Positions 27,091 to 37,060 of a stretch of DNA of 64,000 nucleotides are shown piece after piece (the first letter of the stretch is position 1; each line of letters starts with the position of its first letter). Position numbers and translations under genes: made by a program. This DNA is from Pseudomonadota bacterium (GTDB lineage: Bacteria > Pseudomonadota > Gammaproteobacteria > Xanthomonadales > Rhodanobacteraceae): assembly GCA_021793195.1 (NCBI GenBank), contig JAJYTG010000001.1:62001-126000 (forward strand), given 5' to 3'. The notes beneath the pieces were generated by a model. The model was not told where the DNA came from. It did no database searches and worked only from the letters and a program-made list of their open reading frames with translations.

Positions 27091-27240
27091 TCCGCGACCC
27101 GGCCGGAACGCGATGCGACCCGCGCCGGCGCGCTAGAATACGCGCCCCATCGCGCGCTCTGACGCGGCCGAGGCCGCCGGCGCGCTCCGCCCGTCCATCG
27201 CGCCGCCGTGCCGGCGCGCCACGCTCCGGAGCTCCCCCGC

Positions 27241-28341
27241 ATGATCTTCGAAACCCTCGGCACCTACGGCCACGAACAGGTCGTGTTCTGCCACCAGAAG
27301 GACGTCGGCCTGAAGGCCATCATCGCCATCCACAACACCGTGCTGGGGCCCTCGCTGGGCGGTCTGCGCATGTGGGCCTACAAGACCGAGCAGGAAGCGC
27401 TGAACGACGTGTTGCGCCTCTCGCGCGGCATGACCTACAAGAACGCGGTGGCCGGCCTCAACCTGGGCGGCGGCAAGGCGGTGATCATCGGCGATCCGAC
27501 CCGCGACAAGTCCGAGGCGCTGTTCCGCGCCTTCGGCCGCTTCGTGCAGTCGCTGGGCGGACGCTACATCACCGCCGAGGACGTCGGCATCGACGTCAAC
27601 GACATGGAATACGTGTTCCGCGAAACCGAGTTCGTCACCGGCGTGCACCAGGTGCACGGCGGCTCCGGCGATCCCTCGCCCTTTACCGCGTACGGCACGC
27701 TGCAGGGCCTGATGGCCGCGCTCAACCACAGGTACGGCCACGAGGACGTGGGCAAGCTCAGCTACGCCGTGCAGGGCGTGGGCCATGTGGGCATGGAGTT
27801 CGTCAAGCTGCTGCGCGAGCAGGGGGCCAAGGTGTTCGTCACCGACATCAACAAAGCGGCCGTGCAGCGCTGCGTGGACGAGTACGGCTGCGAGGCGGTG
27901 GCGCTGGACGAGATCTACGACGTGGACGCCGAGGTCTACAGCCCGGCGGCACTGGGTGGCACCGTCAATGAGCAGACCCTGCCACGCCTCAGGTGCAAGA
28001 TCATCTGCGGCCCCGCCAACAACCAGCTGGCCAGCGACGCCGTCGGCGACGAGGTCAGCAGGCGCGGCATCCTGTACGCACCCGACTACGCGGTGAACGC
28101 GGGCGGCGTGATGAACGTGTCGCTGGAGATCGACGGCTACAACCGCGAGCGCGCCATGCGCATGATGCGCACGATTTACTACAACGTCGGACGCATCTTC
28201 CAGATCGCCGAACGGGACAGCATCCCCACCTACAAGGCCGCCGACCGCATGGCCGAGGAACGCATCGCCACCATCGGCAAGATCAAGTTGGCGACCATGG
28301 GCAACGGTCCGCGTTTCCTGGGCCGCATGCGCGGGCAGTGA
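27241..28341 (+). CDS. Glu/Leu/Phe/Val dehydrogenase, leucine dehydrogenase-like
   Basis: [45 protein letters not shown]...[25 protein letters not shown]...[20 protein letters not shown]. Confidence 0.92.
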
Positions 28342-28429
28342 CCAATGCGCGCGGTCGGGCATCCTGCCGCGACGTGCGCGATACGGGCGCGGAGCGGCCG
28401 CGCCCGGTCCGAGCCATCCGGAGCCAACC

Positions 28430-29587
28430 ATGCGCCCTTTCTCCCTCGGTGACGACCTCGACCTGCTGCGCGAGACGGTGCACGCCTTCGCCGAGAAGGA
28501 GATTGCGCCGCGCGCCGACCGCATCGACCGCGAAAACGCCTTCCCCGCCGACCTCTGGCGCAAGCTCGGTGAACTGGGCCTGCTAGGCATCACCGTCGCG
28601 CCGGAGTACGGCGGCAGCGGAATGGGCTATCTGGCCCACCTGGTGGCCATGGAGGAGATCTCGCGCGCATCCGGCAGCGTGGGCCTCAGCTACGGCGCGC
28701 ACAGCAATCTGTGCGTCAACAACATCTTCCTCAACGGCACGACGGAACAGAAACGGCGCCTGCTGCCCAAACTGTGCAGCGGCGAGTGGGTGGGTGCACT
28801 GGCGATGAGCGAACCGGGCTCGGGCTCGGACGTGGTCGGTTCGATGGCGTGCCGCGCCGAACGCAAGGGCGACGGCTGGATCGCCAACGGCTCGAAAATG
28901 TGGATCACCAACGGCCCCGACGCAGACGTGCTGCTGGTGTACATGCGCACCGCCGGGCGCGAGGCCGGCAGCCGCTGCCTGACCGCTTTCATCGTCGAGA
29001 AAAGCATGCCCGGCTTCCGCACCGCGCAGAAGCTGGACAAGCTGGGCATGCGCGGCTCCAACACCTGCGAACTGGTGTTCGAGAACTGCGAGATCGCCGA
29101 TGCCAACCGCGTCGGTGAAGTCAACGAGGGCGTGCGCGTGCTGATGAGCGGGCTGGACAGCGAGCGCCTGGTGCTCTCCGGCGGCCCGATCGGCCTAATG
29201 CAGGCGGCGCTGGACCTGACCCTGCCCTACGTGCGCGAACGCAAGCAGTTCGGTGCGCCGATCGGCACCTTCGAACTGATGCAGGCCAAGATCGCGGACA
29301 TGTACACCGCGCTGCAGTCCAGCCGCGGCTACGCCTACATGGTGGCGCGGCAGTTCGACGCCGGCCAGCGCTCGCGCATCGATCCGGCGTCATGCCTGCT
29401 GCTGGCCAGCGACAACGCCGTGCAGATCGCGCTGGAGGCCATCCAGGCGCTGGGCGGCAACGGCTACATCAACGACTACCCGGCCGGCCGCATCCTGCGC
29501 GATGCCAAGCTGTACGCCATCGGCGCGGGCACCAACGAAATCCGCCGCATGCTGATCGGCCGCGAGCTCTATCACGGCAAGTCCTGA
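28430..29587 (+). CDS. ivd: Isovaleryl-CoA dehydrogenase (acyl-CoA dehydrogenase family)
   Basis: [84 protein letters not shown]...[43 protein letters not shown]. Confidence 0.95.
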
Positions 29588-29618
29588 GCGATCGCACCGC
29601 AGGTCGCGCCCGCCCATA

Positions 29619-29632
29619 TTACGCAATCGTAA
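29619..29632. promoter_or_regulatory. Short dyad TTACG-CAAT-CGTAA upstream of the lipoprotein/BNR gene pair
   Basis: Perfect 5+5 inverted repeat in an AT-richer intergenic stretch between ivd and the lipoprotein gene; possible operator. Confidence 0.3.
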
Positions 29633-29687
29633 CTTGCCGCATCCTCCCGCCGGCGCTGTGATGGCGCAACGGAGGGGGGCGCAAGCG

Positions 29688-30170
29688 ATGCGCGGCATGG
29701 ACACAGCCTTGATCGCCGGTTTCCTGGGTGCGACCACACTGCTGGCCGCAGGCTGCAGCGCACTGCCATTGCACGCAGCGCCCGAAAGCGCAGCACCCGA
29801 CTACAGAGCAGAGACCGCCGCACCCGCGGTGCGCGTCGACGTGCGTACGCTGGGCGCGCTGCAGGCCGCACTCATCGTGCATCTGACTACCCGCTCACCG
29901 CTGGCCGAGGTGATCGTGTCGATCGACCAGCAGGGCACCGCATTGTCCGTGCAGCCCGCCGCATGCCGCTTCGCACCACTGCGGCCGCCCGTGGTCCGGC
30001 ATGCCTCCGCGCCGCCCTATCCGCTGCCGGCCATCCCGCTGTGCAGCCTGGTGCTGAGCGCGCCGCGCGGCGGGCGTTATCCGGTCACCGTGCGCGTGAC
30101 CGACGGTCACGGCCGTGATCTCGTCACCCCCATCCGCACCACCATCGTCATGCAAGGGGAATCACCGTGA
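29688..30170 (+). CDS. Small putative lipoprotein of unknown function
   Basis: MRGMDTALIAGFLGATTLLAAGC (lipobox LAAGC); RBS-like GGAGGGGG upstream; stop overlaps the GTG start of the next gene (GTGA). Confidence 0.65.
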   Translation: MRGMDTALIAGFLGATTLLAAGCSALPLHAAPESAAPDYRAETAAPAVRVDVRTLGALQAALIVHLTTRSPLAEVIVSIDQQGTALSVQPAACRFAPLRPPVVRHASAPPYPLPAIPLCSLVLSAPRGGRYPVTVRVTDGHGRDLVTPIRTTIVMQGESP

Positions 30171-33100
30171 AGGGAACCTCCTGGTGGGCCATGCTGGCCA
30201 TCACCTGTCTGACCGCCGCAGCTGCGACGGCGCCCGCGCCGCGGCATGCCTCGGCGCGCGACCGTGCGCTGGCGGCCTACACCGCGCGCGCACTGTCCAC
30301 GGCCTCGGGGCAGTACGCCGGCGCGCAATACCAGGCCGCACTGCGCGCCCGCGCGCGCATGCTGAGGAACGCGCAGGTGCAGACGCGCGCCCGGCCGCCG
30401 GGCGGCGCGGTGACGCGCGCCGGCACCGCGCCCTCGGTGATCAACTGGACCGAGATCGGGCCCGGCAACGTCGGCGGGCGCATCAACAGCATCTGGATCG
30501 ACCCCGCCAATGCCCAGCATCTCATCGTCGGCGCCGCCGGCGGCGGTCTCTGGCAGAGCAGCGACGGCGGCGGCAGTTGGACGGCGGTGGCCGAGTTCCC
30601 CGGATCGCTGGCGGTCGGCGCGATCGCGCAACTGCCCAACGGCACCCTGCTGGCGGGCACCGGCGACGAGTTCAACGAGTTCCAGCCCGGCGACGGCCTG
30701 TTCCTGTCCACCGACGGCGGCAATACCTGGAGCCCGGTCGTCGATACCGCGCCGCAGTCGAACACCGACTTCTGGAGCGTGATCCTCTCCATCGCCACCA
30801 GCAGCAGCGGCGTGGCGCTGGCCTCGACCTGGGGCGGCATCGCGCGCAGCACCGACGGCGGCCAGACCTGGACGCAGGTGTGGCCCAGTGGCGGCGGCGT
30901 CAACGCCAGCGACCAGGTGGTGTTCGATCCCAACAACCCCAACAGCGCGGCAGCCGACAACGAGAACGGCGGCGTGGTCTATTCCACCGATGCCGGCGCC
31001 ACCTGGAACGCAGCCACCGGCCTGCCCGGCACCGCCGGCGCGCGCACCGCGCTGGCCTTCGACCCCAGCGTCGCCGGCTCGGTGTACGCGCTGGTCGACA
31101 ACAACAACGGCAGCAGTCCCAGCGGCGAGGTGTTCCATTCCACCGACGGCGGCAAGACCTGGACGCTGCTGGCCGGCACCAGCGCCTTCAACAACCCCGT
31201 GGGCGGCAGCGCCGTGGGCGCGCTGTGCGACAACTCCTTCAGCGGCAGCCCGGTGGAATGCCAGGGCGGCTACGACAACGCGATCCTGGTCGAGCCGCAC
31301 GCCAGCGGCAACCCGCCCACCATCGTGGTGGGCGGTATCGACATTTTCACCTCCACCGATGGTGGCAGCACCTGGACCATGAACGGCGAGGCCTATGGAC
31401 GCAGCGACCATCTGCACGCCGATCAGCACGCGTTCGCATACAGCAGCGCGACCAGCACGCTGTATGTAGGCAACGACGGCGGCTTCTACCGGCAGCTGCC
31501 GCTGGGCAACTGGCTGCAGCAGAACAGCGGCCTGGCCGATACGCAGTTCTACGCGATCTCGGGCCACGAGGGCGTCACCGCGGCCAAGAACACCGCGGGC
31601 GGCACCGCGATCACGCCGATCACCGCCGGCGCGCAGGACAACGGCACGCTGCTGTATCGCGGCTACAGCAGCGGCGGCGCGCCGCTGCCGGACGACTGGA
31701 CGCCGATCTTCGGCGGCGACGGCGGGCAGACCCATGTCGACCCGGTCGATGGCGACTACCTGTACGGCGAGTACACCAACCTGTCGCTGTTCTACTCCGA
31801 CACCGGTTCCACGGCACAGCAGTACGGCACCGAGCCGCCCGATACCGCCGGACAGAACGCCAATTTCATCGCGCCCTTCGCGCTGGTGCCGAGTGCCGGT
31901 GCCAGCGCCTCGCAGATGATCGCCGGCGGCGCATCGCTGTGGCTGGGCAGCAACATCCAGACGGCCAATCCGACCTGGACGGCGGTCAACGGCAGCGGCA
32001 TGCCGGCCAACACCGCCAACAGCAACTATGTCAGCGCCATCGCCATCGATCCGGCCAACAGCAGCGATGCCTGGGTCGGTTACAACGACGGCGAGGTCTG
32101 GCACTCCACCAATGCATTGGGAGGCAGCCCGACCTGGACGCAGTGCGGCGCCGGCACCCTGCCCAGTGGCCGGCCGGTGGAGAGCTTCTGGATCGTGCCC
32201 GGTCGGTCGAACACCGTGTACGTGACCTATCTCGGCTTCAAGGCCACCGGCAGCGACGACAACGTATGGATGACCGGCGATGCCGGGTCGAGCTGGACCG
32301 GCATCGGCACCGGGCTGCCACCCGGCCCGGTCTATTCGCTGGTCACCCATCCGGCCTATCCGCAGATCCTCTACGCGGGCACCCTGACCGGCGTTTACAC
32401 CAGCATCGACAGCGGCCAGAGCTGGTACGCCAGCAGCCAGGGGCCGGCCAACATCTCGGTGAACCGGCTCAGCTGGTTCGACACCAGTACGCCCAGCCAG
32501 CCCGTGCTGCTGGCCGCCACCGACGGCCGCGGCGCATGGATGGGCTCGCCTGCCTACAACCCCACACCGGTGCTGACCGGAGTCAGTCCCGACCAGGTGA
32601 CGGTCGGCTCGCCGGCTACCGTGGTCATGCTCGACGGCAGCGGCTTCGTGGCGCACAGCACGGCCACGCTGGACGGCGCGCCGATCAGCGTCAGCTACCA
32701 ATCGGCGACCCAGCTGCAGGCGACGGTGCCGGCCGCGACGCTGGCTACGCTGGGCACGCACAGTTTCGCGGTGAGCAACCCCATTCCCGGCGGCGGCGCG
32801 GCGGCGGCGGCCAGCCTCACCGTGGCCTACCCGGCACCGGCGATCAGCGGGCTGTCGCCGTCTGCGGCCATGATGGGTGACGCCGGCTTCACGCTCACCG
32901 TCGCGGGCAGCGGCTTCGAACCGGTTTCCGAGGTGCAATGGAACGGCAACGCGTTGGCCACGACCTACGTCTCGGCCTCGCAGCTCACCGCCAGCGTGCC
33001 GGCGGGCGATCTGGCCGGCGGCGGCAACGCCACGGTCACCGTGAGCACGCCCGCCCCCGGCGGCGGTACCGCCAGCGCCACGTTCGCCGTGGACTATCCG

Positions 33101-33481
33101 ATGCCGACGCTGGTCTCGATCTCGCCGACCTCGGCACAGGCAGGCTCCGGGGCCGCCACGATCACCGCCTCGGGCGGCAACTTCGTGCCGGCCTCGACCC
33201 TCGACTGGAACGGCATGCCGCTGACCACCACCTTCGTCAGCGCCTCCCAGCTCACCGCCGGTGTGCCCGCCGGCGACCTGGCACAAGCCGGCAGCGCATC
33301 GGTGACGGCCGTCAATCCCGCACCCGGCGGTGGCCGCTCGACCGCCGTGACCTTCTCCGTGAATGCCGCACCGGGATCGGCCTCGGGCGGCGGCGGGGGC
33401 GGCGCGCTGGGCTGGCGGGCGCTGGCCGCGCTGGCCATGCTGGCGGCGGTTTCATGGTCCCGGCGCCGCCGTACCGTGTGA
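30167..33481 (+). CDS. Large secreted BNR/Asp-box repeat protein with three IPT/TIG domains and a GlyGly-CTERM-like tail
   Basis: Signal peptide; at least 8 Asp-box-like motifs (SSDGGGSWTAV, STDGGNTWSPV, STDGGQTWTQV, STDAGATWNAA, STDGGKTWTLL, STDGGSTWTMN, TGDAGSSWTGI, SIDSGQSWYAS); three ~89-aa TIG repeats; C-terminus SGGGGGGALGWRALAALAMLAAVSWSRRRRTV. Confidence 0.85.
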   Translation: MKGTSWWAMLAITCLTAAAATAPAPRHASARDRALAAYTARALSTASGQYAGAQYQAALRARARMLRNAQVQTRARPPGGAVTRAGTAPSVINWTEIGPGNVGGRINSIWIDPANAQHLIVGAAGGGLWQSSDGGGSWTAVAEFPGSLAVGAIAQLPNGTLLAGTGDEFNEFQPGDGLFLSTDGGNTWSPVVDTAPQSNTDFWSVILSIATSSSGVALASTWGGIARSTDGGQTWTQVWPSGGGVNASDQVVFDPNNPNSAAADNENGGVVYSTDAGATWNAATGLPGTAGARTALAFDPSVAGSVYALVDNNNGSSPSGEVFHSTDGGKTWTLLAGTSAFNNPVGGSAVGALCDNSFSGSPVECQGGYDNAILVEPHASGNPPTIVVGGIDIFTSTDGGSTWTMNGEAYGRSDHLHADQHAFAYSSATSTLYVGNDGGFYRQLPLGNWLQQNSGLADTQFYAISGHEGVTAAKNTAGGTAITPITAGAQDNGTLLYRGYSSGGAPLPDDWTPIFGGDGGQTHVDPVDGDYLYGEYTNLSLFYSDTGSTAQQYGTEPPDTAGQNANFIAPFALVPSAGASASQMIAGGASLWLGSNIQTANPTWTAVNGSGMPANTANSNYVSAIAIDPANSSDAWVGYNDGEVWHSTNALGGSPTWTQCGAGTLPSGRPVESFWIVPGRSNTVYVTYLGFKATGSDDNVWMTGDAGSSWTGIGTGLPPGPVYSLVTHPAYPQILYAGTLTGVYTSIDSGQSWYASSQGPANISVNRLSWFDTSTPSQPVLLAATDGRGAWMGSPAYNPTPVLTGVSPDQVTVGSPATVVMLDGSGFVAHSTATLDGAPISVSYQSATQLQATVPAATLATLGTHSFAVSNPIPGGGAAAAASLTVAYPAPAISGLSPSAAMMGDAGFTLTVAGSGFEPVSEVQWNGNALATTYVSASQLTASVPAGDLAGGGNATVTVSTPAPGGGTASATFAVDYPMPTLVSISPTSAQAGSGAATITASGGNFVPASTLDWNGMPLTTTFVSASQLTAGVPAGDLAQAGSASVTAVNPAPGGGRSTAVTFSVNAAPGSASGGGGGGALGWRALAALAMLAAVSWSRRRRTV
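32562..33360 (+). repeat. Three tandem IPT/TIG domain-coding repeats (~267 bp each)
   Basis: Repeats begin PTPVLTGVSPDQV, PAPAISGLSPSAA and PMPTLVSISPTSA; each carries a conserved ...VSASQLTAxVPAGDLA...NPxPGGG core (more divergent in the first). Confidence 0.75.
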
Positions 33482-33596
33482 GGATGGTGCGCACGGCGCA
33501 GCGGGATGCTGTTTCCCGCCGGTTTGCCGCGTCGCAACAGACGGCGCGATAATCGCGGCTTTCCAGTCCGCGGCAGCCGTGCCGCCGGGAGTCAGC

Positions 33597-34772
33597 ATGT
33601 CGGAGATCGTCATCGCCGGTGCCAAACGCACCGCCATCGGTTCCTTCCTCGGCCAGTTCACCGGCGTGCCGGCGCCCGCCCTGGGTGCGACCGCCATCCG
33701 CGCCGCGCTGGCGCAGAGCACGCTGGCCGCGGACCAGGTATCCGAGGTGATCATGGGCTGCGTACTGCCGGCCAACCTGGGGCAGGCGCCGGCACGGCAG
33801 GCCGCTTTGGCCGCGGATCTGCCCGCCGCCGCCGGCTGCACCACGATCAACAAGGTGTGCGGATCGGGCATGAAGGCGCTGATGCTGGCACACGATCTGA
33901 TCCGCGCCGGCAGCGCCGATGTCGTCGTCGCCGGCGGCATGGAGTCGATGACCAACGCCCCGCACCTGGTGCAGGCGCGCGTGGGCATCCGCTACGGCGA
34001 GGCTACGCTGGTGGACCATATGGCCTGGGATGGTCTGACCAACCCCTACGACGGCAAGGCCATGGGCGTGTTCGGCGAGAGCTGTGCCGAGCAGTACCAC
34101 TTCACCCGCGAGGCGCAGGATGCGTTCGCGGCCGAATCCGTGCGCCGCGCGCTGGCCGCGCAGCAAACCGGCGCCTTTGTCGGCGAAATCGCTGCGGTGA
34201 AGGTCGCCTCGCGCAAGGGCGAGGTGGAGATCGCCACGGACGAACAGCCCGGCCGTTGCGACATCGCCAGGATTCCCACGCTCAGGCCGGCTTTCCGCAA
34301 GGAAAACGGCACCATCACCGCAGCCAGTTCCTCCAGCATCTCCGACGGTGCCGCTGCGATGGTGGTGATGCGCGGCGAGGATGCGGCCAGGCGCGGCATC
34401 GAGCCGCTGGCGCGCGTCGTGGCGCATGCTACGCACTCGCAGGCACCCGAGTGGTTCACCACCGCGCCAGTAGGGGCCATCCGCAAGGTGCTGCAGAAGA
34501 CCGGCTGGCGGGTGGAGGACGTGGACCTGTTCGAGGTCAACGAGGCCTTCGCCGTGGTGGCGATGGCGCCCATCCGCGAGCTGGGCATCCCGCACGAGCG
34601 GCTGAACGTGCACGGCGGCGCCTGCGCGCTGGGCCACCCCATCGGGGCCAGCGGCGCACGCATCGTGGTGACGCTGCTGCACGCACTGCAGCAGCGCGGT
34701 GGACGGCGTGGCGTGGCCGCGCTGTGCATCGGCGGCGGCGAGGCTACCGCGGTGGCCATCGAAAGGCCCTGA
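33597..34772 (+). CDS. Acetyl-CoA C-acetyltransferase (thiolase)
   Basis: MSEIVIAGAKRTAIGSFLGQFTGVPAPALGATAI...NKVCGSGMKALMLAHDLIRAGSADVVVAGGMESMTNAPHL...NVHGGACALGHPIGASGARIVVTLLHAL. Confidence 0.95.
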   Translation: MSEIVIAGAKRTAIGSFLGQFTGVPAPALGATAIRAALAQSTLAADQVSEVIMGCVLPANLGQAPARQAALAADLPAAAGCTTINKVCGSGMKALMLAHDLIRAGSADVVVAGGMESMTNAPHLVQARVGIRYGEATLVDHMAWDGLTNPYDGKAMGVFGESCAEQYHFTREAQDAFAAESVRRALAAQQTGAFVGEIAAVKVASRKGEVEIATDEQPGRCDIARIPTLRPAFRKENGTITAASSSSISDGAAAMVVMRGEDAARRGIEPLARVVAHATHSQAPEWFTTAPVGAIRKVLQKTGWRVEDVDLFEVNEAFAVVAMAPIRELGIPHERLNVHGGACALGHPIGASGARIVVTLLHALQQRGGRRGVAALCIGGGEATAVAIERP

Positions 34773-35071
34773 CGCGCATCCATGAGAGCGGCCATGCGCA
34801 CGACTGGCGCGCGGCGCCGGCTTGTCGTTTAATGCCTGCGCATGGACGGCCGGACCGGGGGCATGCAGATGGCCGCCCGCAGTCCGCAGCAGGTGCCGCA
34901 TCGCAGGATTTCCGCCCGGCGTCAGGCCCGCGCCGGGCGGGATGAACCACCGATTTCCGGCCGGTGTCCGGTGACCGTCTCCACGGCGGCCACCACTGGC
35001 GCCCACGCTGGAGTCGCGTTTTAATATCGTGGCCATCCTTTGGCACTCACGGCATTTAGGAGAGACACACA

Positions 35072-35323
35072 ATGAAGCTCACCCGCATCGTTTTTGCGGC
35101 TTCGCTGGTTGCCCTGCTGGCTGCGTGCAGCCACCAGAGTTCCAGCGAGCAGGCCCCGGCCGCCGCCAGCTCGGCTGCCGCACCGACCGAGGCCCCGGCC
35201 CCGGCCGTCACCGCGCCGGCTCCGGCCAGCACGGCAACCCCGGCTCCGGCCACGACCGCCACGGCTCCAGCGCATGCTGGTACCGCGACCCCGGCCGAGG
35301 CGGGCACCGCCCACGGCGGCTGA
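35072..35323 (+). CDS. Small Ala/Pro/Thr-rich lipoprotein
   Basis: MKLTRIVFAASLVALLAACSHQSS (lipobox LAAC) then A/P/T low complexity; RBS TAGGAGAGA; followed by a strong terminator. Confidence 0.7.
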   Translation: MKLTRIVFAASLVALLAACSHQSSSEQAPAAASSAAAPTEAPAPAVTAPAPASTATPAPATTATAPAHAGTATPAEAGTAHGG

Positions 35324-35346
35324 CCGGCGTCCCTGCCGAGTACCGA

Positions 35347-35377
35347 AACCGGCCGCATCGCGCGGCCGGTTTTTTTT
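35347..35377 (+). terminator. Rho-independent terminator
   Basis: AACCGGCCGC-ATCGC-GCGGCCGGTT (10-bp perfect stem, 5-nt loop) continuing into an 8-T run. Confidence 0.92.
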
Positions 35378-35455
35378 CCGCCCTGACGGATTCCGCATTT
35401 GCGGCTGCCGCCCGGCGCAGGCTTATCATTGCCATTCCGATTCCGGACCGGATGC

Positions 35456-37060
35456 ATGAGCCTTCTGCCCACGCGCATCGATGCGCGCTCAGCCGAGTTC
35501 CTCGGCAACCGCCGGCATATGTGCGCCCTGGTGGAGGAACTGCGCCGGCGCATGCGGCAGGCTGCGGAAGGTGGCGACGCCCGCGCCCGCGAAAAGCACG
35601 GTTCGCGCGGCAAGCTGCTGCCGCGCGAACGCGTACGCGTACTGCTGGATGACGGCAGTCCGTTTCTGGAGATCGCACCGCTGGCCGCCCACGGGCTCTA
35701 CGACGGCCAGGCACCCGCCGCGGGCCTGATCGCGGGTATCGGTCGCGTGCACGGCCTCGAGGTACTGGTGATCGCCAACGATGCCACCGTCAAGGGTGGC
35801 ACCTACTTTCCGATCACCGTCAAGAAGCACCTGCGTGCGCAGCAGATTGCTCTGGAGAACCGCCTGCCCTGCGTGTACCTGGTCGATTCCGGAGGCGCCT
35901 TCCTGCCGCTGCAGGACGAGGTGTTCCCCGACCGCGAGCACTTCGGCCGCATCTTCTACAACCAGGCGCGCATGAGCGCGCTGGGCATCGCACAGATCGC
36001 CGTGGTGATGGGCTCGTGCACGGCCGGCGGCGCCTACGTGCCGGCGATGAGCGACGAGACCATCATCGTGCGCGGGCAGGGCACCATTTTCCTGGGTGGC
36101 CCGCCGCTGGTGAAGGCCGCTACCGGCGAGGTGGTGGACGCCGAGGCGCTGGGCGGCGCCGAGGTGCATACCGGCGTCTCCGGCGTGGCCGATCATCTGG
36201 CCGAAGACGACCGTCACGCCCTGCAGCTCGCGCGCGCGGCCGTCGCCCGGCTCAACCGCGCGCCTGCACCGCAGCCGCGACAGGCGCCGAGTCCTCCGCG
36301 CTACTCCGTCGAAGAGCTGTACGGCATCGTGCCGCCCGACACGCGCGTGCCCTATGAAGTGCGCGAGGTGATCGCCCGCATCGTCGACGACTCCGACTTC
36401 CACGAGTTCAAGGCGCGTTACGGCAAGACCCTGGTCACCGGCTTCGCCGCCATCGAGGGCTACCCGGTGGGCATCGTGGCCAACAACGGCATCCTGTTCT
36501 CCGAATCCGCGCTCAAGGGCGCGCACTTCATCGAACTGTGCGCGCAACGCGGCGTGCCGCTGGTGTTCCTGCAGAACATCACCGGCTTCATGGTGGGCAG
36601 GAAGTACGAGAACGGCGGCATCGCCCGCGACGGCGCCAAGATGGTCACCGCCGTGGCCTGCGCCGACGTACCCAAGTTCACCGTGGTGATCGGCGGCAGT
36701 TTCGGTGCCGGCAACTACGCCATGTGCGGCCGCGCCTATGGCGGCCGCTTCCTGTGGATGTGGCCCAACGCGCGCATCAGCGTGATGGGGGGCGAGCAGG
36801 CCGCCGGTGTGCTGGCCACGGTGCGCCGCGATGGCCTGGAAGCGCAAGGCAAGACGTGGAGCGCGGAAGAGGAAGAGGTCTTCAAGGCGCCCATCCGCGA
36901 ACAGTACGAGCGTCAGGGCCATCCCTACTACGCCACCGCCCGGCTCTGGGACGATGGCGTCATCGATCCTGCCGACACGCGCCGGGTGCTGGCGCTGGCG
37001 CTGGCCGCCAGCGCCAACGCCCCGCTCGAACCGACGCGTTTCGGCGTGTTTCGCATGTGA
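35456..37060 (+). CDS. Methylcrotonoyl-CoA carboxylase beta subunit (carboxyltransferase)
   Basis: [34 protein letters not shown]...[61 protein letters not shown]...[69 protein letters not shown]. Confidence 0.96.

Follow-up and report, generated by a model that had tools for sequence, protein, structure and literature searches.

A lipoprotein gene paired with a double-propeller, triple-TIG protein that carries a putative rhombosortase-type tail

Two overlapping genes lie in a 64,000-nucleotide stretch of a Rhodanobacteraceae genome (Pseudomonadota; assembly GCA_021793195.1, contig JAJYTG010000001.1, positions 62,001 to 126,000; hereafter the window). The first encodes a small lipoprotein and the second a large exported protein with beta-propellers, three TIG repeats and a distinctive C-terminal tail, and together they raise the question of whether their products act jointly and, if so, by what route they reach their place of action. 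The reading that we favour, with moderate confidence, is that the large protein is a binding protein that is processed by a rhombosortase, exported by the type II secretion system (T2SS) and anchored at the cell surface, with the lipoprotein as its dedicated partner. The pair itself is real. An initial annotation, made from the DNA alone, had described a 160-aa protein with a lipobox whose gene ends in a GTGA overlap with that of a 1104-aa exported protein, and the open reading frames (ORFs) bear out each of these features, with ATG 29697 as an alternative start for the lipoprotein. The G+C fraction at third codon positions (GC3) is 0.79 in the lipoprotein ORF and 0.91 in the large ORF, the range expected for coding frames here. 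The large protein is 49-85% identical to its relatives within the genus and 44-64% to those outside it, and the lipoprotein 36-64% identical to its genus relatives. Conservation, GC3 and domain matches rule out a chance or shadow origin for the two frames; on the minus strand, the long ORF at 30107-33286 is explained as a shadow of codon positions. The overlap suggests that the two genes may be translationally coupled, and they are likely to be co-expressed.

The two genes are inherited together. In the genomes compared, most of which are metagenome bins and several of which are incomplete, the lipoprotein gene adjoins the large gene in all 20 copies that could be assessed (12 in the genus and 8 outside it), and of the 13 measured copies in which the lipoprotein gene comes first, 9 have the 4-nt overlap. 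Three copies (L089, L090 and L093) have the reverse order, with the lipoprotein gene downstream of the large gene and still adjacent to it. One of the genus copies is an additional pair in G010 (L069 4173-7856; 49% identity), whose lipoprotein is shorter and lacks the mature cysteines. When 369 genomes of the class were searched, the lipoprotein profile matched in three, each with the large gene beside it; weak matches in G017 and G018 (E 0.004-0.007) were treated as noise. The same profile found no relative within the flanks of the tail-less propeller homologues (L097-L159). The lipoprotein, paired in all assessable copies and not found beside the tail-less homologues, therefore tracks the tagged form and not the propeller as such. 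The check proposed at first, whether the lipoprotein always accompanies the large gene, is answered positively in these 20 copies, and gene order supports the view that the two behave as one unit. Two loci are irregular. In L010 (G001 C196) a stretch resembling cytochrome oxidase subunit III opens the frame and runs into the propeller, probably because the bin or assembly is chimeric. At L088 4469-7823, a second copy in bin DBS2-4.bin109, the frame changes at about residue 290, which we would ascribe to an assembly error or a decayed gene.

The tail itself runs from SGGGGGG through a predicted helix (residues 1083-1098) to RRRR, so that a Cys-free Gly motif, a hydrophobic helix and a basic cluster at the extreme C-terminus follow one another as in GlyGly-CTERM proteins; sequence and structure prediction agree here with the initial annotation. 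Every pair-family copy that includes the 3' end shows this architecture and has a GGG core. A profile built from the pair-family tails finds the same tail ending otherwise unrelated proteins of the genus, namely FG-GAP/DUF11 proteins and a PKD-domain protein (L196, L197, L201, L210 and L215). GlyGly-CTERM was originally defined by just such a many-to-one pattern (PMC3237569). These proteins are candidates for further rhombosortase substrates; the PKD-domain protein has a subtilase-like GTSA motif and no peptidase match. We consider it very probable that this tail serves as a signal for rhombosortase.

Rhombosortase was scored as present when a protein exceeded the curated cut-off (84 bits) of TIGR03902. 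It is found, at 121-144 bits, in 10 of the 12 other genomes of the genus, and in all nine of the others that bear the pair. Across 61 related genomes of the order, a rhombosortase occurs in 9 of the 10 that bear the pair and in 3 of the 51 that do not (Fisher p = 1.2e-7, relatedness not corrected), and the only pair-bearing exception is the window's own, incomplete genome (G000). Outside the genus the enzyme is present in 6 of 7 genomes with both tail and lipoprotein and in 1 of 13 whose propeller homologues lack the tail (p = 0.0012, relatedness not corrected); it also occurs in G318, a genome whose pair copy was recognised only afterwards. In all genus genomes that have the enzyme and whose contig allowed the check, the rhombosortase gene comes first and is followed by gspC, gspD, gspE and gspF, and in G011 and G008 (L065 and L066) the lipoprotein and large genes come directly after gspF. 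On this gene order, the operon is a direct genetic link of rhombosortase to the T2SS. The co-occurrence in relatives and the presence of the tail on unrelated proteins both support the original proposal of a rhombosortase-type signal; the initial interpretation as a whole is borne out in part.

Several observations weigh against our reading. The genome of the window (97 contigs, 72.9% complete) contains no rhombosortase above the cut-off, its best rhomboid being of the ordinary type (36.9 bits against 84), and no T2SS GspD over its cut-off, the product of a gene that adjoins rhombosortase in relatives. The GlyGly-CTERM model TIGR03501 (curated cut-off 15.5 bits) does not match the window protein at E <= 1; it scores the G010 paralogue (G010b) at 14.8 bits and other genus proteins at 15.8-18.1 bits. 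A pair-bearing genome outside the genus (G426, L087) has no rhombosortase above the cut-off, no gsp genes lie beside the rhombosortase gene outside the genus (L173-L183), and G002 and G003, both incomplete, have tail-like proteins with no rhombosortase detected. Finally, the lipoprotein has a lipobox where known T2SS chaperones have a transmembrane helix. Since the TIGR03501 threshold is missed, we do not file the tail as a formal GlyGly-CTERM member and suggest only that it works like one. The initial annotation was to be abandoned if the genome lacked a rhombosortase and the tail escaped the sorting-signal model; both hold for G000, a genome that is only 72.9% complete and in which GspD is missing as well. 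Because the two genes adjoin in relatives, the loss of one contig would remove rhombosortase and GspD together, as in G000. G006, a near-identical relative whose lipoprotein is the same as that of the window, carries both.

These same gaps would suit a tail that does no more than hold the protein in the inner membrane by its C-terminus, or one that a GlpG-type rhomboid cleaves, leaving the protein periplasmic or shed: TIGR03501 stays below threshold, the own assembly has no rhombosortase, and none was detected in G002 and G003 with their tail-like proteins. GlpG can, moreover, process the Vibrio cholerae protein VesB when rhombosortase is missing (PMC13393428). However, the Cys-free Gly run is invariant, tails of the same type end unrelated proteins, the co-occurrence with a true rhombosortase is strong, and that enzyme shares an operon with GspC-F, with the pair beside it in G008 and G011. 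We consider a plain anchor or GlpG substrate improbable.

The head of the large protein gives some indication of what would be carried to the surface. The strict motif S-x-D-x-G-x-T-W occurs five times (shuffle mean 0.004), and allowing [ST] and [STA] gives eight occurrences, at residues 131, 181, 228, 273, 325, 396, 703 and 746 (mean 0.02 and maximum 1 in 2000 shuffles), so that the count of at least eight Asp-box-like motifs in the initial annotation stands under the relaxed pattern. A profile check of the propellers, proposed at the same time, gave a match to Pfam Sortilin-Vps10 (PF15902) of 80.5 bits against a gathering cut-off of 33. The three tandem IPT/TIG domains were likewise recovered, as three stretches each by Pfam TIG (70.6 bits) and by NCBIfam NF058597 (choice-of-anchor Z, CoaZ; 269.3 bits against a cut-off of 30), which places the protein in the latter family. 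Its TIG repeats are already a catalogued CoaZ domain, and by this assignment the protein is not a new class. It shares with NF058597 proteins three PGGG-ending TIG-type repeats beside a C-terminal anchor, but NF058597 models the repeats only and is silent on propellers and lipoprotein. An AlphaFold2 model (24 sequences, mean pLDDT 82, pTM 0.73) shows a body rich in beta-strands that extends to about residue 798 and is followed by three Ig-like domains, a disordered linker and the C-terminal helix.

The nearest solved folds in Foldseek are GH74 tandem-propeller xyloglucanases (5fkt, E 2e-24, TM-score 0.64, target-normalised), and a profile search agrees, with an alignment to 2cn2 and 2cn3. The large protein could accordingly be imagined as an active GH74-like or sialidase-like surface glycosidase, and the NCBIfam F510_1955 glycosylhydrolase model does give 98 bits, short of the 175 set as its cut-off. 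The tandem propeller fold is indeed common to the large protein and the xyloglucanases (2cn2, 5fkt and 6mgj). However, identity is 16-18%, the TIG repeats and tail are additional, and the column that we take to hold the catalytic base, an Asp in 2cn2 and an Ala in 2cn3, whose sequence otherwise matches, has Ala124 in the large protein, a residue unchanged in all nine aligned relatives of the pair family. As this column is an invariant alanine, a GH74-type reaction is unlikely. The sialidase sequence matches are short Asp-box stretches only. We have therefore set aside an active GH74 enzyme or sialidase, which has little chance of being correct given the absent catalytic base, and suggest that the large protein is probably a non-enzymatic binding protein.

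The lipoprotein has no family match in Pfam, NCBIfam, PHROGs or a PDB sequence search, in keeping with the first impression that it belongs to no recognised family, and a plasmid search gave no match to it. Its lipobox (LLAAGC, lipidated Cys23, Ser at +2) has a cysteine that is invariant among relatives, Cys93 and Cys119 of the mature protein are conserved in most members, and a proline-rich loop, LxPPxV...PPYPLPAIPLCS, is conserved. AlphaFold2 predicts the mature protein to be an Ig-like beta-sandwich (pLDDT 78.9 overall and >90 over most of the sandwich). A fold search returned only generic Ig-like/E-set domains, the best being a BBSome subunit (E 5e-5, TM-score 0.53 over the query), a match too generic for a function to be assigned from it. 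Nothing supports an immunity protein, the sub-threshold Tli3 match falling in the propeller. The +2 residue is never Asp in the genus copies; under the E. coli rule, a residue other than Asp at this position sorts a lipoprotein to the outer membrane.

Our proposal resembles the pathway of VesB in Vibrio cholerae, where rhombosortase cleaves so as to leave the second Gly exposed, the new end is linked to a glycerophosphoethanolamine moiety and the T2SS then carries the protein out to the surface (PMC6219818); in VesB the Ig fold adjoining the tag serves as a secretion signal (PMC13393428). Both proteins have a signal peptide, a folded head, an Ig-type domain, a flexible linker and a C-terminus made of a Gly-rich motif, a hydrophobic helix and a basic end; relatives of the window genome have an enzyme of the rhombosortase subfamily and a T2SS, and the tail is on several unrelated proteins. 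They differ in that the head is a double propeller without recognised catalysis where VesB is a protease, the window protein's tail falls below the TIGR03501 threshold, a lipoprotein is adjacent in every copy examined, and the rhombosortase gene sits inside a gspCDEF operon. The processing, export route and exact lipoprotein role that we infer would be as follows. The signal peptide would take the large protein across the inner membrane, where the C-terminal helix would hold it until rhombosortase cuts at the Gly run and joins the new end to a lipid head group; the protein would then leave through the T2SS, the TIG repeats beside the tail occupying the place of the Ig fold in VesB. The lipoprotein, as a dedicated partner in the form of a tethered Ig-like domain, probably at the outer membrane, would bind the large protein while it folds in the periplasm or is passed to the T2SS, and may remain with it on the surface.

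The weakest step of this proposal is to cast the lipoprotein as a chaperone and not as a permanent surface subunit. Dedicated membrane-tethered chaperones whose genes adjoin those of T2SS substrates form an established class (PMC4713064). Like CpaB and LipB/Lif (PMC4713064), the lipoprotein is a small envelope protein encoded beside a single T2SS-type substrate (adjacent in 20 of 20 copies), with one N-terminal membrane tether and a domain in the periplasm; it differs in that the tether is a lipobox and not an N-terminal transmembrane domain, in its Ig-like fold instead of SRPBCC or lipase-foldase, and in that no sequence relation was found. It could instead be a lasting component, in the outer membrane or at the surface, of a binding complex made of the two proteins, in which, for example, the propellers capture a ligand and the lipoprotein docks. 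A +2 residue that is never Asp is in line with such a location, strict pairing, including the reversed order, suits a stoichiometric complex no less than a chaperone, and the conserved proline-rich loop could be the interface. On the other hand, the large protein has its own predicted anchor, which makes a second tether unneeded, and adjacent membrane-bound chaperones do serve some T2SS substrates (PMC4713064). We regard the surface subunit as a real possibility, though the less probable role.

If the lipoprotein is the dedicated partner that we favour, a bolder suggestion, which we offer only tentatively, is that it represents a new family of T2SS partners, Ig-like and anchored by a lipid, that are reserved for cargo with the rhombosortase tag and deliver the propeller/TIG protein to rhombosortase or to the T2SS, in a type of operon in which rhombosortase would itself be one of the gsp genes. 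Work on rhombosortase substrates has centred on Vibrio. A lineage in which rhombosortase is encoded beside GspC-F and a substrate is paired with a lipoprotein, of a family without a name in the libraries searched, offers a two-gene unit in which to look for a substrate-specific helper in their recognition and transfer to the T2SS. The features are collected in Table 1.

Table 1. Positions of the features discussed (window coordinates unless a locus is given)
Feature	Position	Strand	Basis or remark
Lipoprotein gene	29688..30170	+	ORF, 160 aa from ATG 29688; family uncharacterised
GTGA overlap, lipoprotein stop / large-protein start	30167..30170	+	sequence ACCGTGAAGG
Large exported protein gene	30167..33481	+	ORF, 1104 aa, GTG start
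Double beta-propeller region, Asp-box repeats	30431..32560	+	residues ~89-798; Pfam, AlphaFold2, Foldseek, profile alignment
Three tandem TIG / choice-of-anchor Z (PGGG) repeats	32561..33367	+	residues ~799-1067; NF058597, Pfam TIG
GlyGly-CTERM-like tail	33368..33478	+	Gly run 1074-1079, hydrophobic helix 1083-1098, RRRR end
Rhombosortase-gspC-gspD-gspE-gspF operon	L065 3186-9782		also L066, L070, L071, L072, L076-L079
Downstream lipoprotein genes	L089 6509-7015; L090 6843-7433; L093 4329-4841		

The pair is set among amino-acid and acyl-CoA degradation genes (window 27208-37060: a Leu/Trp-type dehydrogenase, an acyl-CoA dehydrogenase, a thiolase and a carboxyltransferase). As the flanking genes of the pair vary from genome to genome, this neighbourhood is probably incidental. 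Downstream of the thiolase, at 35072-35323, is a small Ala/Pro-rich ORF of 83 aa, lipoprotein-like and unrelated to the pair.

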